Positions 33,561-43,036 of a stretch of 64,000 nucleotides of DNA are shown here, one piece after another. The notes beneath the pieces were generated by a model. It did no database searches and was not told the DNA's origin. It saw only the letters and a list, made by a program, of their open reading frames with translations. The translations under genes and the position numbers were made by a program. Each line of letters opens with the position of its first letter. Position 1 is the stretch's first letter. The stretch comes from Frateuria edaphi (lineage in GTDB: Bacteria > Pseudomonadota > Gammaproteobacteria > Xanthomonadales > Rhodanobacteraceae), in assembly GCF_021117405.1 (NCBI RefSeq), contig NZ_CP088251.1, positions 434,001 through 498,000 of the forward strand, read 5' to 3'.

Positions 33561-35368
33561 GCCTGCGCCGCCCGCTCCCGCAACCTTCCGCCGGCCGCCG
33601 CCGTGGCGCCGGCCCCAGCGTGCGCAAGCGCATGCTGCTGGTGGTCGGCGTGCTGTCGCTGGCCTCGCTGGGGCTGGTCGCACGCGCGTTCGACCTGCAG
33701 GTAATGCGCAAGCAGTTCTACCAGGACCAGGGCGACGCGCGTTTCCTGCGCGAAGTGAAGATCCCGGTGTCGCGCGGCACCATCTTCGATCGCAACGGCG
33801 AGCCGCTGGCGGTGTCCACCCCGGTGATGTCGATCTGGGCGAACCCGCCGCAGGTGCTGGAGAGCGCCGACCGCATTCCCGACCTGGCCGCCGCGCTCGG
33901 CGTGGACGCGGGCGAGCTCAAGGAGCGCCTGGCGCAGCGCGCCGACCGCGAGTTCGTCTACCTGCGCCGGCAGATGCCGCCGGAAGCAGCCGAAGCCGTG
34001 CTCGACCTGGACATCCCGGGCATCAATGCGCAGCGCGAGTACCGCCGTTACTACCCGTCGGGCGAAGTAACCGCGCACGTGCTCGGCTTCACCAACATCG
34101 ACGACCATGGCCAGGAAGGGCTCGAGCTTGCCTTCGACGATTGGCTTTCCGGCAAGCCGGGCGCCAAGCGGGTCATCCGCGACCGCATGGGGCACGTGGT
34201 CGAGGATGTCGAGCAGGTGCGCGAGCCCAAGCCGGGCAAGAGCCTCATGCTCAGCATCGACCGGCGCATCCAGTTCCTGGCCTACAACGAGCTGAAGAAC
34301 GCGCTGACCGAGTTCGATGCGTCCTCCGGGTCGATGGTGATCCTGGACGTGCCGACCGGCGAAGTGCTGGCGATGGTCAACCTGCCGACCTACAACCCCA
34401 ACTCGTTGTCCGGCAGCAAGTTCTCCGACCGGCGCAACCGTGCCGTCACGGACCTGATCGAGCCCGGCTCGACGATCAAGCCGGTGCTCATGGCCGCGGC
34501 GCTCTCCAGCGGCAAGTACACGCCGACCAGCCCGCTGATCGACACCACCGGCGGCCACTGGTACTTCCAGGGTCACGACATCCACGACACGCACAACTAC
34601 GGCCTGCTCACGCCCACCGGCGTGATCACCAAATCGAGCAACGTCGGCGCCGCGCGCATCGCCATGACGCTCGACACCGCGCTCATGTACAACACGTACC
34701 GCGCGTTCGGTTTCGGCAACAGCACCAGCAGCGGCTTTCCAGGCGAGTCCTCGGGCCTGCTGCGCATCGGTCGCGACTGGCGTCCGCTGGAACAGGCGAT
34801 CATGGGCTACGGCTACGGCCTGAACGTGACGCCGCTGCAACTGGCCAATGCGTACGCCACGCTGGGCGACCACGGCGTCATGCATTCGCCCAGTTTCATC
34901 AAGGACGCCGACAACGAAGCCAAGGCGATCGTGTCGCGGCAGGTCGCCGACGAGATCGTGCGGATGATGGAAACGGTTACCGCCCCGGGCGGCACCGCCA
35001 CCACCGCACGCATCGCCAATTACATCGTGGCCGGCAAGACCGGCACGGCGCACAAGGCCGCTGCCGGCGGCTATTCGCGCAACAACTACACCGCCGCCTT
35101 CGCCGGCCTGGTGCCGGCGAGCAACCCCCGGCTGGTCGGCGTAGTGATCATCGACGACCCGCAGAAGCGCAGTTACTACGGCGGCATGGTTTCAGCGCCG
35201 GTGTTCGCGCGCGTCATGGAAGGGGCGCTGCGCCTGCTCGACGTGCCGCCGGACAACATCGGGCGCTGGTACGCCGGCGGGCCGTTGATGAGCCCGAATG
35301 GCTTGGCCGGCAGCAAACCGCCGGTCGATCCGCCGATCGACGACGCACCTGTCGAGGACGAGCCGTGA
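33557..35368 (+). CDS. ftsI: Septal peptidoglycan transpeptidase FtsI (PBP3)
   Basis: This 603-residue class B penicillin-binding protein has a short basic cytoplasmic tail, one helix at about 27-46, and a PBP dimerisation pedestal (VSRGTIFDRNGEPLAVS near 75). The transpeptidase domain has S305-T-I-K308, the SSN motif in ITKSSNVGAARIA and KTG in AGKTGTAHKAAAGGY. It cross-links septal peptidoglycan as partner of FtsW, encoded at 39286. The Pro/Asp-rich C-terminal tail (PPVDPPIDDAPVEDEP) is dispensable-looking. The stop overlaps the murE GTG start. Confidence 0.96.
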   Translation: MSLRRPLPQPSAGRRRGAGPSVRKRMLLVVGVLSLASLGLVARAFDLQVMRKQFYQDQGDARFLREVKIPVSRGTIFDRNGEPLAVSTPVMSIWANPPQVLESADRIPDLAAALGVDAGELKERLAQRADREFVYLRRQMPPEAAEAVLDLDIPGINAQREYRRYYPSGEVTAHVLGFTNIDDHGQEGLELAFDDWLSGKPGAKRVIRDRMGHVVEDVEQVREPKPGKSLMLSIDRRIQFLAYNELKNALTEFDASSGSMVILDVPTGEVLAMVNLPTYNPNSLSGSKFSDRRNRAVTDLIEPGSTIKPVLMAAALSSGKYTPTSPLIDTTGGHWYFQGHDIHDTHNYGLLTPTGVITKSSNVGAARIAMTLDTALMYNTYRAFGFGNSTSSGFPGESSGLLRIGRDWRPLEQAIMGYGYGLNVTPLQLANAYATLGDHGVMHSPSFIKDADNEAKAIVSRQVADEIVRMMETVTAPGGTATTARIANYIVAGKTGTAHKAAAGGYSRNNYTAAFAGLVPASNPRLVGVVIIDDPQKRSYYGGMVSAPVFARVMEGALRLLDVPPDNIGRWYAGGPLMSPNGLAGSKPPVDPPIDDAPVEDEP

Positions 35369-36843
35369 CCACGCGCCTCCTCGCTGATCTGCTCGATGGT
35401 TTCGCCGACGCGGGTGCGCTCGGCGATCTTCGTATTTGCGGACTGAGCCTGGACTCGCGCCAGGTGCGTCCCGGTGAAGCTTTCATCGCATTGTCCGGCA
35501 CCCGCACGCATGGCATCGCCTTCGCCGCCGAGGCAGTGGCGCGCGGCGCCGCGCTGGTGCTCGCGGAGGCGCCGGCGGTCCCCGGCTTCACGCCCGGCGT
35601 GCCGGTGCTGTGGATCGACGACCTGCACGCGCGCCTGGGCGAGATCGCCGCGCGCTTCTACGACCACCCCTCGCGCGCGTTGCGCATCGTCGGCGTCACC
35701 GGCACCAACGGCAAGACCTCGACCGTGCAGCTCATTACCCAGGCCCTGTCGCGACTTGGCTGCACCGCCGCGAGCATCGGCACTCTCGGCGCCGGCCTGT
35801 ATGGCGCGCTGGACGAAGGCGAGCGCACTACGCCGGATGCGATCAGCGTGCAGCGCCTGCTCGCACGGTTCCGCGACCGGGGTGCGACGCACGTGGCGAT
35901 GGAGGTCTCCTCGCATGCCCTGGAGCAAGGCCGGGTGGGTGCGGTGGGTTTCGAGGTCGCGGCTTTCACCAACCTGACCCGCGACCATCTCGACTACCAC
36001 GGCACGATGGAGGCCTACGGCGCCGCCAAGGCCAAGCTGTTCGCCTGGCCGGGTTTGAAGGCGGCCGCGATCAACGTGGACGACGCGTTCGGCTGCGCCC
36101 TGGCCGATCGCCTGCCGGTCGGCGTGCGCGTACTGCGCACCAGCATCGTGGGCGCCGCCGACGTCGGTGCCCAGGCCATCGTGACCTCCGCCGAGGGCCT
36201 GGCCTTCCAGCTCATTACGCCCTGGGGCGCGCATGCAATCCGCAGCGCGTTGCTCGGCGGCTTCAACGTGGCCAACCTGCTCGCCGTGGTGGCCTGCCTC
36301 GGGGCACTGGGCGAGCCGTTCGCACGCATCGTCGAGGTAATCCAGACGCTCACGCCGGTCAACGGCCGCATGAATCGCCTCGGCGGCGATGGCCGGCACC
36401 CGCTGGTAGTGGTCGACTACGCGCACACACCCGATGCGCTGGAGCAGGCGCTCACCGCGCTGCGTGCGCATTGCGCCGGCCGCCTCATTTGCGTCTTCGG
36501 CTGCGGCGGCGAGCGTGATGCGGGCAAGCGTCCGCAGATGGGCGCGATTGCCGAGCGCCTGGCCGACGTGGCGATCGTCACCGACGACAACCCGCGTGGC
36601 GAGGACGGCGACGCCATCGTGGCGCAGATCCGCGCCGGCATGCGGCGTCCGGCCGCGATCGAGCGCGACCGCGCCGCCGCGATCGGCACGGCCATCGCCC
36701 AGGCCGGCGCGGACGACGTCGTGCTGATCGCCGGCAAGGGTCACGAAACCTACCAGGAAGGTGCTGCCGGCAAGCGTCCGTTCGACGATCTCGCTGTCGC
36801 CCGCGCCGCCCTTGCGCAACCGGCCAGGGAGAACCACGCATGA
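35365..36843 (+). CDS. murE: UDP-MurNAc-tripeptide synthetase MurE (meso-diaminopimelate adding)
   Basis: This 492-residue cytoplasmic Mur ligase adds meso-diaminopimelate to UDP-MurNAc-L-Ala-Glu. The ATP loop is GVTGTNGKTST, the carbamylated-Lys region lies after TNLTRDHLDYHGTMEAY, and the diaminopimelate-specificity motif DNPR is present in TDDNPRGED, which excludes lysine-type MurE. The start is GTG 35365, overlapping the ftsI stop (GTGA), and it begins the family N terminus MTTRLLADLL. The last residues overlap murF by four bases. In the Xanthomonas-type variant pathway its substrate could be made by MurD2 and MurL. Confidence 0.96.
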   Translation: MTTRLLADLLDGFADAGALGDLRICGLSLDSRQVRPGEAFIALSGTRTHGIAFAAEAVARGAALVLAEAPAVPGFTPGVPVLWIDDLHARLGEIAARFYDHPSRALRIVGVTGTNGKTSTVQLITQALSRLGCTAASIGTLGAGLYGALDEGERTTPDAISVQRLLARFRDRGATHVAMEVSSHALEQGRVGAVGFEVAAFTNLTRDHLDYHGTMEAYGAAKAKLFAWPGLKAAAINVDDAFGCALADRLPVGVRVLRTSIVGAADVGAQAIVTSAEGLAFQLITPWGAHAIRSALLGGFNVANLLAVVACLGALGEPFARIVEVIQTLTPVNGRMNRLGGDGRHPLVVVDYAHTPDALEQALTALRAHCAGRLICVFGCGGERDAGKRPQMGAIAERLADVAIVTDDNPRGEDGDAIVAQIRAGMRRPAAIERDRAAAIGTAIAQAGADDVVLIAGKGHETYQEGAAGKRPFDDLAVARAALAQPARENHA

Positions 36844-38210
36844 TGCGCCTCTCCGAAATCGCGGTATGGACACACGGGCGCCTGCTCGGCGCCGACCTCC
36901 AGGTGGATGGGGTGGCGATCGATACCCGCCGACTGCAGGCGGGTGAGCTGTTCGTGGCGATCAAGGGCGAGCGCGTCGACGGCCACGACTTCGTGCGCGA
37001 GGCCGCGCTGCGCGGTGCTGCCGCGGCGCTGGTCACGCGCCGCGTGGACGTCGACCTGCCGCAGGTGCTGGTCAACGACACCCAGGCTGCGCTCGGCGAC
37101 CTCGCCAGCGCGGTGCGCGCACAGCGCGACGTGCGCGTGGTCGGCATCACCGGTTCCAACGGCAAGACGACGGTCAAGACGCTGACCGCCTCGATCCTTT
37201 CGCGCCACGGCCGCACACACGTCAACGCGGGCAACTACAACAACGAACTGGGACTGCCGCTGACGCTGCTGGCGATGCCCGCCGACACCGAATACGCGGT
37301 GCTCGAAATGGGCGCCGGCAAGCCCGGCGACATCGCCTACCTCGCCGCCATCGCGCGGCCCGATATCGGCCTCGTCAACACCATCGCGCCGGCGCACCTT
37401 GAGCGGATGCGCAGTCTGGAGGGCGTGGCCGAAACCAAGGGCGCGCTATACCAGGCGCTTCCGGCCGACGGCGTGGCGATCATCAATGCCGACGATGCCT
37501 TCGCCGGCTTCTTCGAAGGCCTGGCCGGTTCGCGCGCGACGCTGCATTTCGGCCTGGACGGCCACGTCGACGTGGGCGCGACCATCCTGGAGCAGCGCGT
37601 GGACGGTTCGCGCTTCCTGCTGCGCACGCCCGAGGGCGAGGCCGAGGTGGCGCTGCCGCTGGCCGGGCGCCACAACATCGCCAATGCGCTGGCGGCCGCC
37701 TCGATCGCGCTGGCGCTGGACGTGCCGCTGGCGACCATCGTCGCCGGCCTGCAGCACGTGCCTGGCGTGGCTGGGCGGCTGCGCAGCGAGGCGATGCCGG
37801 GTGGCTGGACGTTGATCGACGACAGTTACAACGCCAACCCCGGCTCCGTGGCCGCGGCGATCGACACGCTGGCGCTGGCCACCGGCGAGCGCTGGCTGGT
37901 GCTCGGCGACATGGCCGAGCTCGGCGCCGACGCGCGCGCGCTGCACGAAAGCATCGGCGCGCGCGCGAAGGCGGCTGGCATCGACCGGCTGTTCGCGGTC
38001 GGGCCGCTGAGCGCAGGCGCGGCCAAGGCCTTCGGCAGCGGCAGCGAACACCACGCCGACAAGGCCGCGCTGGCCGCGTCGCTGGCACGCCAGCTGCACG
38101 CGGGCGTGACCTGCATCGTCAAGGGTTCACGCTCGGCCGGCATGGAGCAGGTCGTGTCCTTACTCAAAGAACAAACCCACGCCTCCGGAGGCCCTGTCGA
38201 TGCTGCTTGA
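36840..38210 (+). CDS. murF: UDP-MurNAc-pentapeptide synthetase MurF
   Basis: This 456-residue Mur ligase attaches D-Ala-D-Ala to UDP-MurNAc-tripeptide in the cytoplasm. Its D-Ala-D-Ala substrate comes from Ddl, encoded at 43033. Motifs are [14 protein letters not shown] (P loop), [37 protein letters not shown] and the C-terminal [16 protein letters not shown]. The start ATG overlaps the murE stop (ATGA), and the 3' end overlaps mraY by 11 bases. Confidence 0.96.
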
Positions 38211-39282
38211 GCTGGCCGACTGGATGGCACGGCACTTCACCGCCCTGCACCTTTTCCAGTACATCACCTTCCGCACGATCATGGCCGCGCTCACCGCGCT
38301 GGCGATGTCGCTGCTGCTGGGTCCGGGCCTGATCATGCGGCTGGCCGCCCTCAAGGCCGGGCAGGTGGTGCGCAGCGACGGCCCGCAGACGCACCTGGTC
38401 AAGGCCGGCACGCCGACGATGGGCGGTGTGATGATCCTGCTGGCGATCGCGATCGCTACGCTGTTGTGGGCCGACCTGCACAACCGCTACGTGTGGATCG
38501 TGTTGGCCGTACTGATCGCCTTCGGCGTGATCGGCTTCTATGACGACTACAAGAAACTGGTGCTCAAGGACAGCCGCGGGCTGGCCTCGCGCTGGAAATA
38601 TTTCTGGCAGTCGGTGTTCGGGCTGGCGGCGGCGCTGTTCCTCTTCAAGACGGCCCAGCTCCCGGCCGAGACCGCGCTGTACGTGCCGCTGTTCAAGCAG
38701 GTGGCATTGCCGCTGGGCGTGCTGTTCGTGGTGGTCGCCTACTTCATGGTGGTCGGCTTCTCCAATGCGGTGAACCTCACCGACGGCCTGGATGGCCTGG
38801 CGATCATGCCCTCGGTGCTGGTGTCCGGGGCGCTCGGCGTGTTCGCCTACCTCGCCGGCAACAAGGTGTTCTCCGAATACCTGGGCATCCCCTCGATTCC
38901 CGGCGCGGGCGAGCTCTCCATTTTTTGCGGGGCTTTGGCCGGCGCGGGCCTGGGTTTCCTCTGGTTCAACACCTATCCGGCGCAGGTCTTCATGGGCGAC
39001 GTCGGCGCGCTGGCCATCGGTGCGGCGCTGGCCTGCGTGGCGGTGATCGTGCGCCAGGAAATCGTGCTGATCGTGATGGGCGGCGTGTTCGTGCTGGAGA
39101 CGGTGTCGGTGATGTTGCAGGTGGCGAGTTTCAAGCTCACCGGCAAGCGCATCTTCCGCATGGCGCCGATCCACCATCACTTCGAGCTCAAGGGCTGGCC
39201 CGAGCCGCGGGTGATCGTGCGCTTCTGGATCATCAGCGTCGTGCTGGTGCTGATCGGCCTTGCCACGTTGAAGGTGCGCTGA
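38200..39282 (+). CDS. mraY: Phospho-MurNAc-pentapeptide transferase MraY
   Basis: This 360-residue enzyme has ten predicted membrane helices. It transfers phospho-MurNAc-pentapeptide to undecaprenyl phosphate, making lipid I at the inner membrane. Signature segments are [28 protein letters not shown] (Asp pair), [22 protein letters not shown] and the C-terminal [22 protein letters not shown]. It begins inside the end of murF. In most gammaproteobacteria murD follows; here ftsW starts three bases after the mraY stop. Confidence 0.97.
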
Positions 39283-39285
39283 CCC

Positions 39286-40530
39286 ATGTTCGGCTTCGGT
39301 ACCAGCCAGGCGATCAAGCGGAACGGGCCGCGCGGCAGCTTCGACCTGCCGTTGCTGGTCGCGCTCGTCGGGCTGGCCAGCATGGGCGTGGTCATGGTCA
39401 CCTCCAGCTCGATCGCGGTGGCCGACAGCCAGCACATCGGTGCGTTCTATTACCTGAAGAAGCACCTGTTCTATCTGGCGCTCGGACTGGGGCTTGCCGG
39501 CATCGCGATGCGCACCGAGCTGAAGCAGGTGGAGAAGTACGCCTTCCCGCTGCTGCTGGTCGGCGGCGTCATGCTGCTGGCGGTGTTCGTGCCGCACCTG
39601 GGCATGCGCATCAACGGCGCGCGGCGCTGGCTCAACTTCATCGTGCTCAGTTTTCAGCCAGTCGAGGCGGTGAAGCTGATCCTGGTCGTCTACGTGGCGA
39701 GCTTCCTGGTGCGCCACCGCGAGAGCGTCGAAACGAAGTTCTGGGGCCTGCTGCGACCGATCATCGTGGCCGGCGTCATCGTGTTGCTGCTGCTAGCTCA
39801 GCCGGACTTCGGCTCGGCCACGCTGGTGATCGCGGTCACCATCGGCATGGTCTGGCTGGGCGGCGCGCGACCGCTGTACCTGTTCCTGATGGGCCTGCCG
39901 CTGATGCCGGCGCTCGTCGTCGCGGCGACCAGCGAGAGCTACCGCATGAAGCGGCTGACCTCGTTCATGGACCCGTGGAAGGACCCGTTCAACGATGGTT
40001 TCCAGTTGACCCAGTCGCTGATGGCGATCGGCCGTGGCGAATGGACCGGCGTGGGCCTGGGATCGAGCGTGCTCAAGCTTTCCTACCTGCCCGAGGCGCA
40101 CACCGACTTCATCCTGGCAGTGATCGGCGAGGAACTCGGCCTGGCGGGCATCGCGCTGGTGATCGGGCTGTTCGCCACCGCGGTCGGGCGCGGTCTGTAT
40201 CTCGGCCTCAAGGGCGTGGAAGTAGGCCAGCGCTTCGCCGGCTACGTGGCCTTCGGCATCTCGCTGATGCTGGGCTTGCAGGCGATGGTGTCGATCGGAG
40301 TGAACCTCGGCGCGCTGCCGACCAAGGGTCTGACCCTGCCGCTGATCAGCTCGGGCGGCTCGTCGGTGCTGATGACCTGCGCCATGGCCGGCGTGCTGCT
40401 GCGCGCCACCTTCGAGATCAACCGCGCGCTGGACGCGCGGCAGATGGCCACGCGCATGCCTGCGATGGCCGTGGCGGACGCGAACGCCGCGGTGGCACCG
40501 CCGCGCGAGCGCGAGGCGGTGGCCGCATGA
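39286..40530 (+). CDS. ftsW: Septal peptidoglycan glycosyltransferase FtsW
   Basis: This 414-residue SEDS-family protein has ten membrane helices and polymerises lipid II at the division site with FtsI. Typical segments are NGARRWLNFIVLSFQPVEAVKLILVVY, the large periplasmic loop region with SYRMKRLTSFMDPWKDPFNDGFQL, and EAHTDFILAVIGEELGL, ending in PTKGLTLPLISSGGSSV. The C-terminal Ala/Arg-rich cytoplasmic tail is variable. It follows mraY with no room for murD, and its stop overlaps the murG start (ATGA). Confidence 0.96.
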   Translation: MFGFGTSQAIKRNGPRGSFDLPLLVALVGLASMGVVMVTSSSIAVADSQHIGAFYYLKKHLFYLALGLGLAGIAMRTELKQVEKYAFPLLLVGGVMLLAVFVPHLGMRINGARRWLNFIVLSFQPVEAVKLILVVYVASFLVRHRESVETKFWGLLRPIIVAGVIVLLLLAQPDFGSATLVIAVTIGMVWLGGARPLYLFLMGLPLMPALVVAATSESYRMKRLTSFMDPWKDPFNDGFQLTQSLMAIGRGEWTGVGLGSSVLKLSYLPEAHTDFILAVIGEELGLAGIALVIGLFATAVGRGLYLGLKGVEVGQRFAGYVAFGISLMLGLQAMVSIGVNLGALPTKGLTLPLISSGGSSVLMTCAMAGVLLRATFEINRALDARQMATRMPAMAVADANAAVAPPREREAVAA

Positions 40531-41600
40531 GCGCGGACCGTCCCGTGCTGATCATGGCCGGGGGAACCGGCGGCCACATTTTTCCGGGCCTGGCCGTGGC
40601 CGACGTGCTGCGCGCGCAGGGCATCCCGGTGGCCTGGCTGGGCGCGGCCGGCGGGATGGAGACGCGCGTGGTGCCGGCCCACGGCATCGAGTTGCACACC
40701 GTCGCGGTCGGCGGCCTGCGCGGCAAGGGCTTGAAGACCCGACTGCTGGCACCCCTGATGCTGGCGCGCGCTCTGTTCGCCTCTCTTCGCGTGTTGCGTC
40801 GGGTACGCCCGCGCAGTGTGTTGTCGATGGGTGGCTACGTCGCCGGTCCCGGCGGGGTGGCGGCGCGGATCACCGCAACGCCGCTGCTGGTCCACGAGCA
40901 GAACCGCGTTGCGGGCTACACCAACCGCAAGCTCGCCGGTTTCGCGAGGCGCGTGCTGGCTGGTTTCGCCGATGCGCTCCCGAACGGCGAATGGGTAGGT
41001 AACCCGGTGCGCGCCAGTATCGCGGCACTGCCGCCGCCGGCGGAGCGTTTCGCCACACGCAGCGGCCGATCGCAATTGCTGGTGCTGGGCGGCAGTCTCG
41101 GCGCGCGTGCGCTCAACCTCGCGTTGCCGCAGGCGCTGGCTCTGATCCCCATCGACCAGCGCCCGGTCGTGCGCCACCAGTGCGGAAGCCGCGGGCTCGA
41201 CGAGGCGCGCGCGGCTTATGCACAGGCGGGAGTCGAGGCCGACGTGGTGCCATTCATCGAAGACATGGCCGCCGCCTACGGCTGGGCCGACCTCGCCGTG
41301 TGCCGTGCCGGCGCGCTGACGATCGCCGAGCTTACCGCCGCGGGCCTGGGCGCCGTGCTGGTGCCTTTCCCCTATGCGGTCGACGACCACCAGACCGGCA
41401 ACGCGCAGGCGCTGGTGGAAGCGGGCGCCGCCGAATTGATCCAGGAACGTGATTTGGACGTAGAGAAACTGGCGCAGCGCCTTGCCGCGCTGCTCGCCGA
41501 CCGCCGCCAGCTGACCGCGATGGCGGAAGCTGCGCGCACGCAAGCCAAGCCCGACGCGGCCGCAACGATTGCCCGCGCTTGCCTGGAGGTGGCCGCATGA
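40527..41600 (+). CDS. murG: UDP-GlcNAc:lipid I GlcNAc transferase MurG
   Basis: This 357-residue GT28 peripheral membrane enzyme converts lipid I to lipid II on the cytoplasmic face. Motifs are [16 protein letters not shown] (N-terminal G loop), [38 protein letters not shown] and the donor-site [17 protein letters not shown]. The start is fixed by the ATGA overlap with ftsW; in-frame codons upstream lie within mraY and ftsW. Its stop in turn overlaps murC. Confidence 0.96.
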
Positions 41601-43036
41601 CGCCGCGCCGCCTGCTCGCGCACGAAGACCTGATGACCACCTTCCGCCGCGTGCATTTCATCGGCATCGGCGGCGTGGGCATGAGCGGCATCGCCGAGGT
41701 GCTGCACAACCTGGGCTACGCCGTGTCCGGTTCGGACAAGGCCAACTCGCCCACCGCGCAACGGCTGGCCGCGCTCGGCATCGACGTGCGCATCGGCCAC
41801 GAGGCCGCGCACGTGGGCGACGCCGACGTAGTGGTGACCTCGAGCGCCATCCGCCAGGACAACCCGGAACTGGTCGCCGCGCGTGCCGCGCGCATCCCGG
41901 TGATCCCGCGCGCGGAGATGCTGGGCGAGCTGATGCGCTTCCGCCGTGGCGTCGCCATCGCCGGCACGCACGGCAAGACCACCACGACCAGCCTGGTCGC
42001 CAGTGTGCTGGCGGAAGCCAATTACGATCCGACGTTCGTGATCGGCGGCCAGCTCAACGCCGCCGGCGCCAACGCGCGCTTGGGCACCGGCCAGTATCTG
42101 GTCGCCGAGGCCGACGAGTCCGACGGCTCGTTCCTGCTGCTCTCGCCGGTGATCGCCGCCGTCACCAACATCGACGCCGATCACCTGGAGAACTACGGCG
42201 GCGATTTCGCCCAGGTGAAGAAGGCCTTCGCCGATTTCCTGCACCGCCTGCCGTTCTACGGCCTGGCCGTGCTCTGCGTGGACGACGAGGAAGTGGCGAA
42301 ACTGGCGAAGGGCACCACGCGCCGCGTGATGACCTACGGCATCCGCGCGACCGACGCCGACGTGCGCGCGATCAACGTGCGCCAGAGCGGCTTCCAGATG
42401 CTGTTCGACCTGCAGCTGCCCGGCCGCGCCGAACCACTGCCGGTCACGCTCAACCTGCCGGGCCAGCACAACGTGCTCAACGCGCTGGCAGCCGCCACGA
42501 TCGGCTGGCAGCTGGGAGTCGAAGCCGAGGCGATCGCTCGCGCGCTGGAGAATTTCCAGGGCGTCGGTCGGCGCTTCCACCGCCGCGGCGAGTTGAAGCT
42601 GGAGCAGGGCAGCGCGCTGCTGGTGGACGACTACGGTCACCACCCGCGCGAACTGGCCGCCGTGTTCGCGGCCGCCCGCGGCGGCTGGCCGGACCGGCGC
42701 CTGGTGGTCGGCTTCCAGCCGCACCGCTACAGCCGTACGCGTGACCTGCTGGACGACTTCGCCAACGTGCTGGCCGAGGCTGACGTGCTGGTGCTGACCG
42801 AGGTGTACCCGGCCGGCGAAGCGCCGATCGCCGGCGCCGATGGCCGCGCGCTGGCTCGCGCCGTGCGCGCGCGCGGCAAGGTCGATCCGGTGCTGATCGA
42901 ACACCCGCGCGACTTCAAGGACACCCTGCCGACGCTGCTGCGCGACGGCGACCTCCTGCTGCTGCTCGGCGCCGGCGACATCGGCGCGGCGGCGGTGGAG
43001 CTCGCGCAGGTCGGTCACCTGAGGACTACGAAGTGA
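41597..43036 (+). CDS. murC: UDP-N-acetylmuramate--L-alanine ligase MurC
   Basis: This 479-residue cytoplasmic Mur ligase adds the first residue, L-Ala, to UDP-MurNAc. The UDP-binding N-terminal loop is [17 protein letters not shown], the ATP loop is [11 protein letters not shown], and [12 protein letters not shown] and [14 protein letters not shown] are the middle- and C-terminal-domain motifs. ATG 41597 overlaps the murG stop. About 18 residues precede the conserved core, slightly longer than some homologues, and an internal ATG at 41633 ([11 protein letters not shown]) is a reasonable alternative start. Confidence 0.95.

Follow-up and report, generated by a model that had tools for sequence, protein, structure and literature searches.

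The stretch of DNA considered here (the window) comprises 64,000 nucleotides of Frateuria edaphi, positions 434001-498000 of the single contig (C1) of a 3.77 Mb genome, and it contains a division and cell wall (dcw) cluster in which mraY is followed directly by ftsW and the ligase gene murD is missing. The features that define this arrangement are given below in coordinates of the window.

35365..36843, + strand: murE, an open reading frame (ORF) with a TIGR01087 cross-match, named from position and sequence
36840..38210, + strand: murF, TIGR01143 (460.5 bits)
38200..39282, + strand: mraY, TIGR00445 (447.8 bits)
39283..39285, no strand: three-base mraY/ftsW junction, the place of murD in E. 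coli, from sequence and E. coli gene order
39286..40530, + strand: ftsW, TIGR02614 (401.8 bits)
40527..41600, + strand: murG, start from the ORF, name taken only from its position and sequence; served as a tblastn query
41633..43036, + strand: murC, TIGR01082 (556 bits, run on the longer ORF 41579-43033)

The stop codon of mraY (TGA, 39280-39282) is separated from the ftsW start (ATG, 39286) by the three bases CCC, and no murD frame was found in the dcw cluster of the window, which retains murE, murF and murC. The original prediction had claimed that murD is absent from the cluster, that ftsW begins three bases after mraY, and that no Mur ligase frame intervenes while the other three ligase genes are present; this is confirmed in full by the coordinates, the family matches and other genomes. 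In E. coli K-12, the gene order of which was checked, murD lies exactly between mraY and ftsW. Within the order that includes Xanthomonas and Lysobacter, ftsW was the next tblastn match after mraY in 29 of the 30 genomes where mraY was located, so the gap is not a product of chance; the exception is G018, a doubtful member of the order in which murD comes next. The placement of the window genome in this order follows from genomes of the order whose ligases are almost identical to named ones of Lysobacter and Arenimonas. Searching the genome with the DNA of the ftsW region (window 39276-41000) returned, apart from that region, just four short matches.

The murL-murD2 locus and the ligase it encodes

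A search of the whole contig with TIGR01087 (murD) gave five matches, only one of which is over the cut-off (C1:636395-637672, 338.4 bits); three of the remaining four are the murC, murE and murF of the window and the fourth lies at C1:3100776 (78.6 bits). The ligase gene is located ~138 kb past the end of the window and ~163 kb from the mraY-ftsW junction. Directly upstream of it is murL, encoding a protein of 444 amino acids that matches the NF041275 equivalog at 781.6 bits (cut-off 700), and upstream of murL lies lysAC, encoding a bifunctional aspartokinase/diaminopimelate decarboxylase (NF006515, 1228 bits).

L006:7035-8369: murL, by NF041275
L006:8369 (ATG): start of the murD-type ligase gene (murD2), by TIGR01087, residues and tree

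The murL stop overlaps the ligase start by one base (TGATG). Glutamate racemase (MurI, TIGR00067) gave 0 matches in the genome, where 10 of 14 controls were matched, 8 of them over the cut-off. No D-amino-acid transaminase (TIGR01121) over the cut-off was found in the genome either; two matches below it are IlvE (358.2 bits) and PabC (238.5 bits, TIGR03461).

Where E. coli MurD has D182, K348, A414 and L416, the ligase has E, R, P and F; the D182/K348-type D-Glu site of canonical MurD was not found in it, E/R standing in its place. Ogasawara and Dairi state in their review (PMC8788868) that Glu197, Arg358, Pro433 and Phe435 of Xanthomonas oryzae MurD2 correspond to E. coli MurD Asp182, Lys348, Ala414 and Leu416; E197D and R358K each altered the stereospecificity of MurD2 and both together led to use of D-Glu, and introducing the reverse changes into E. 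coli MurD did not make it accept L-Glu. The ligase tree covers 104 non-redundant sequences and was built by a quick method with support from the Shimodaira-Hasegawa-like approximate likelihood ratio test (SH-aLRT) only, E. coli MurD and G018 MurD being long branches; in it the F. edaphi ligase is found among MurD2 proteins and apart from E. coli MurD.

The order was surveyed in 249 genomes drawn from a larger group, with completeness of at least 90% requested. With a limit of E<=0.001 MurL was detected in 243 of the 249; it exceeded the family cut-off in 162, and MurI exceeded its own in 3. A ligase over the cut-off was found in 30 of 34 genomes searched, giving 31 ligases with that of F. edaphi; Arg occupies position 348 in 29 of the 31, all from MurL-bearing genomes, the other two belonging to G110 and G018. 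Named loci were confirmed in 288 cases, and among the best 80 of these Glu-Arg is present in 79 and Glu-Lys in one, that of the metagenome-assembled genome (MAG) OFTM154. For the 79 Glu-Arg loci, murL was found in the flank of 71 (three cut by a contig edge), elsewhere in the genome for 7, and not at all for one (L198, at a contig edge).

By analogy with the published MurD2-MurL pathway (PMC8788868 and PMC5808125), MurD2 would add L-Glu at the D-Glu step of cell-wall synthesis, MurL would epimerise this terminal residue to D-Glu while converting ATP to AMP, and MurE would then proceed as usual. The locus is like that of X. oryzae (XOO_1320/XOO_1319) in having adjacent murL and murD2 and the four MurD2 residues, with no murI found and no D-amino-acid transaminase over the cut-off; no essential difference was seen, and in F. 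edaphi the pair follows lysAC. The ligase belongs to the same Mur ligase family as that of the E. coli MurI-MurD route, but the mraY-murD-ftsW order, D182/K348 and murI of E. coli were none of them found here. The variant route that had been foreseen from the junction is supported by the adjacency, the residues, the murL match and the lack of murI, and the three signs named in advance for it (murD2, murL beside it, no murI) are all present in the genome. The bacterium, like almost the whole order, very probably incorporates L-Glu via MurD2, after which MurL inverts it. The explanation as a whole is close to certain: no canonical MurD/MurI route operates, the MurD2-MurL route takes its place, and murD disappeared from the dcw cluster long ago in nearly the entire order, the mraY-ftsW junction being the trace of that loss. 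The feature is explained by an already published pathway, known from Xanthomonas, and the junction taken alone is therefore a clean confirmation.

A different origin of the arrangement would be a canonical, D-Glu-adding murD that had moved out of the dcw cluster, with D-Glu coming from a racemase or a D-amino-acid transaminase, and the ligase does pass the cut-off of the NCBI murD equivalog. Against this, the ligase has the E/R of MurD2 instead of D/K and groups with MurD2 rather than E. coli MurD, murL adjoins it, no murI was matched, and the transaminase matches proved to be IlvE and PabC; such a relocation is very improbable. An assembly or reading artefact, by which murD would have been lost from dcw through misassembly, is scarcely credible at all, as the identical junction recurs in 29 of 30 genomes of the order, independent genomes that are counted as having already refuted it, and the F. 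edaphi genome is one contig with 99.96% completeness.

Several points nevertheless weigh against the assignment to the MurD2-MurL route. The NCBI model TIGR01087 cannot separate MurD from MurD2, so the distinction is made on residues and tree, and the reactions proposed for the two proteins are carried over from the published X. oryzae enzymes. The review (PMC8788868) further reports that the MurD of Streptococcus mutans uses D-Glu although it carries Arg at the 358 position, hence Arg there is by itself no proof of L-Glu use. Lastly, TIGR00067 was matched at E<=0.001 in 85 of the 249 order genomes (best match 19-70 bits in 82), indicating that related racemases exist in relatives, though none was matched in F. 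edaphi.

A likely reversal in OFTM154 and other departures

G110 (OFTM154, JAJFKX01; loci L116/L155) is the clearest of the three MurI-bearing order genomes, and it was placed in one genus with G019 (OFTM396, JAJFKY01); L117 is a further locus of this case. The gene order in OFTM396 is sensor kinase, lysAC, murL, murD2, and OFTM154 has the same order without murL, leaving ~80 bases between lysAC and murD. No significant murL remnant was found by tblastn in four OFTM154 stretches (best E 0.36), nor any MurL in the whole OFTM154 genome. The OFTM154 ligase most likely descends from MurD2, as its sequence is 61% identical to that of OFTM396 and the two group at SH-aLRT 97, with the composition of its row flagged as unusual. 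Its residue at E. coli position 348 is Lys (AAA), where 101 of 101 other non-redundant sequences of the MurD2 clade have Arg; the codon in OFTM396 is CGT, at least two base changes away. The replacement would restore the canonical lysine and corresponds to R358K of X. oryzae MurD2, which affects stereospecificity in the laboratory.

In a check of 108 rows, including a few duplicates, the OFTM154 ligase departs at four columns conserved in >=90% of the other ligases, two of them common to OFTM396 and two being R348K and D185V. Departures as such are not rare, since six other ligases depart at 1 to 7 columns in the same check, and the chance that two departures among 76 such columns strike one of the two laboratory specificity sites is ~0.05. 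The residue change alone is thus modest evidence, and what counts is its coincidence with the loss of murL and the gain of murI. Glu is retained at position 182, so the enzyme may fall short of full specificity for D-Glu.

The murI of OFTM154 (219.8 bits) encodes the motifs VACNTA and LGCTHYP, which we take to hold the two catalytic cysteines. Together with a class-I glutamine amidotransferase gene it is flanked by RND efflux operon genes on one side and by a cbpM-like gene on the other (neighbours named by eye), and the same place in OFTM396 has ~400 bases with no match to either murI or the amidotransferase. Contamination is an unlikely source, because the ParC encoded on the same contig as murI shares 85% identity with ParC of OFTM396, and the three OFTM154 stretches that carry murD, dcw and murI have tetranucleotide profiles with mutual correlations of 0.95-0.97 (0.82-0.84 with the OFTM396 murD stretch). 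OFTM154 is the only one of 43 genomes of its family with MurI over the cut-off. It is a single case, and both genomes are drafts; its sequence makes a natural return to the D-Glu route likely, through loss of murL, gain of murI and the change of Arg to Lys in a MurD2.

G018, with a canonical murD in dcw, MurI at 161.6 bits and no MurL (L120, L121), was at first taken as a second revertant, then set aside, and is counted neither for nor against. Of the 30 genomes it has the lowest scores against the window proteins for mraY (334 bits) and murF (154 bits), the others ranging over 377-700 bits for mraY (377 from a cut gene) and 256-766 bits for murF (28 others with a match). Its FtsZ start has what we take to be an alphaproteobacterial look, and its dcw reading frames look broken by eye. 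A search of 12 genomes for 16S rRNA recovered it from 4, G018 not among them. Either G018 is misplaced in the order or it is a real exception.

Neither MurL nor a murD over the cut-off was found in G041, G083, G128 and G134. Since murL and murD2 mostly lie side by side and the four genomes are drafts of 110-430 contigs, the absence is read as probable assembly gaps, with which a C-terminal murD fragment in G134 fits. The weak racemase matches (~50 bits) of G041 and G083 are poor candidates for a substitute, since they recur in f8 relatives that keep MurL (G007, G017, G034, G048).

Individual loci depart from the common pattern in other ways. The MurD2 of G015 (L070) has Asp at 182 and Arg at 348, with MurL present, and G117 has a MurI (L122:7618-8511, 209 bits) in a genome that retains MurL and MurD2; its murI adjoins genes that by eye resemble surface polysaccharide genes, and it perhaps supplies D-Glu for another polymer. 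In six Thiotrichaceae/Thiotrichales loci (L174, L186, L204, L206, L209, L232) MurD2 has no adjacent murL, and a MurL match was found elsewhere in 6 of 6 genomes. The alphaproteobacterial MAG_CA70 (L200:2098-8426) has murL-murD2 within dcw, directly before ftsW, in the order murF, mraY, GNAT-like acetyltransferase, DgcA (N-acetyl-D-Glu racemase family, 454 bits), murL, murD2, ftsW. MurD2 was also found in L160, L161, L163, L167, L168, L191 and L198, with murL in all but L198; these seven loci lie in genomes labelled Parcubacteria, Desulfobacterales, Acidobacteria, Desulfococcaceae, Sericytochromatia and Planctomycetota, labels in which binning errors are possible and which go beyond the taxa listed in the excerpted part of the 2021 review.

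Predicted fold of MurL and significance

In published accounts of 2018 and 2021 MurL was described as having no known domains. Its predicted fold is like the PP-loop fold of QueC at superfamily level, with the loop and a CxxCxxC motif in the same order, and suggests that MurL has a QatC/QueC architecture with a PP-loop domain. Such a domain would adenylate the alpha-carboxylate, the activated alpha-carbon would be epimerised, and the adenylate would then be hydrolysed; the PP-loop enzymes QueC, QatC and Cap9 differ from MurL in substrate and reaction.

The loop of MurL is GGGKD in 69 of 69 proteins and is followed by Ser in 67 of them, a variant of SGGxDS; the letter-perfect form was not found, its first Ser being Gly in all 69. 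Between sequences the link to QueC is weak, and the fold proposal draws on the predicted structure: Pfam QueC (PF06508) matched 0 of 44 MurL proteins at E<=10, and hhalign gave a probability of 4.9% against one QueC and 9% against seven. A PDB profile search returned the PP-loop protein TtuA (E 0.006) and no QueC or QatC, and PADLOC gave one match, to an unrelated-looking model (E 0.019, in 1 of 44 MurL members).

As the pathway itself is known, the parts worth following are the likely reversal and the fold of MurL. That the D-Glu step is an exchangeable module reversible in nature, as in OFTM154, and that MurL is a PP-loop enzyme adenylating the alpha-carboxylate are, taken together, somewhat probable. 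With the fold assignment, an enzyme of unexplained chemistry would gain a testable mechanism and a structural relative, QatC, from anti-phage defence; MurL has also been proposed in print as a target for narrow-spectrum antibiotics. OFTM396 and OFTM154, two genomes of one genus, show the two D-Glu routes on either side of a likely switch, with a specificity residue changed, so that the way evolution passed between ligation of L-Glu and of D-Glu is directly testable.
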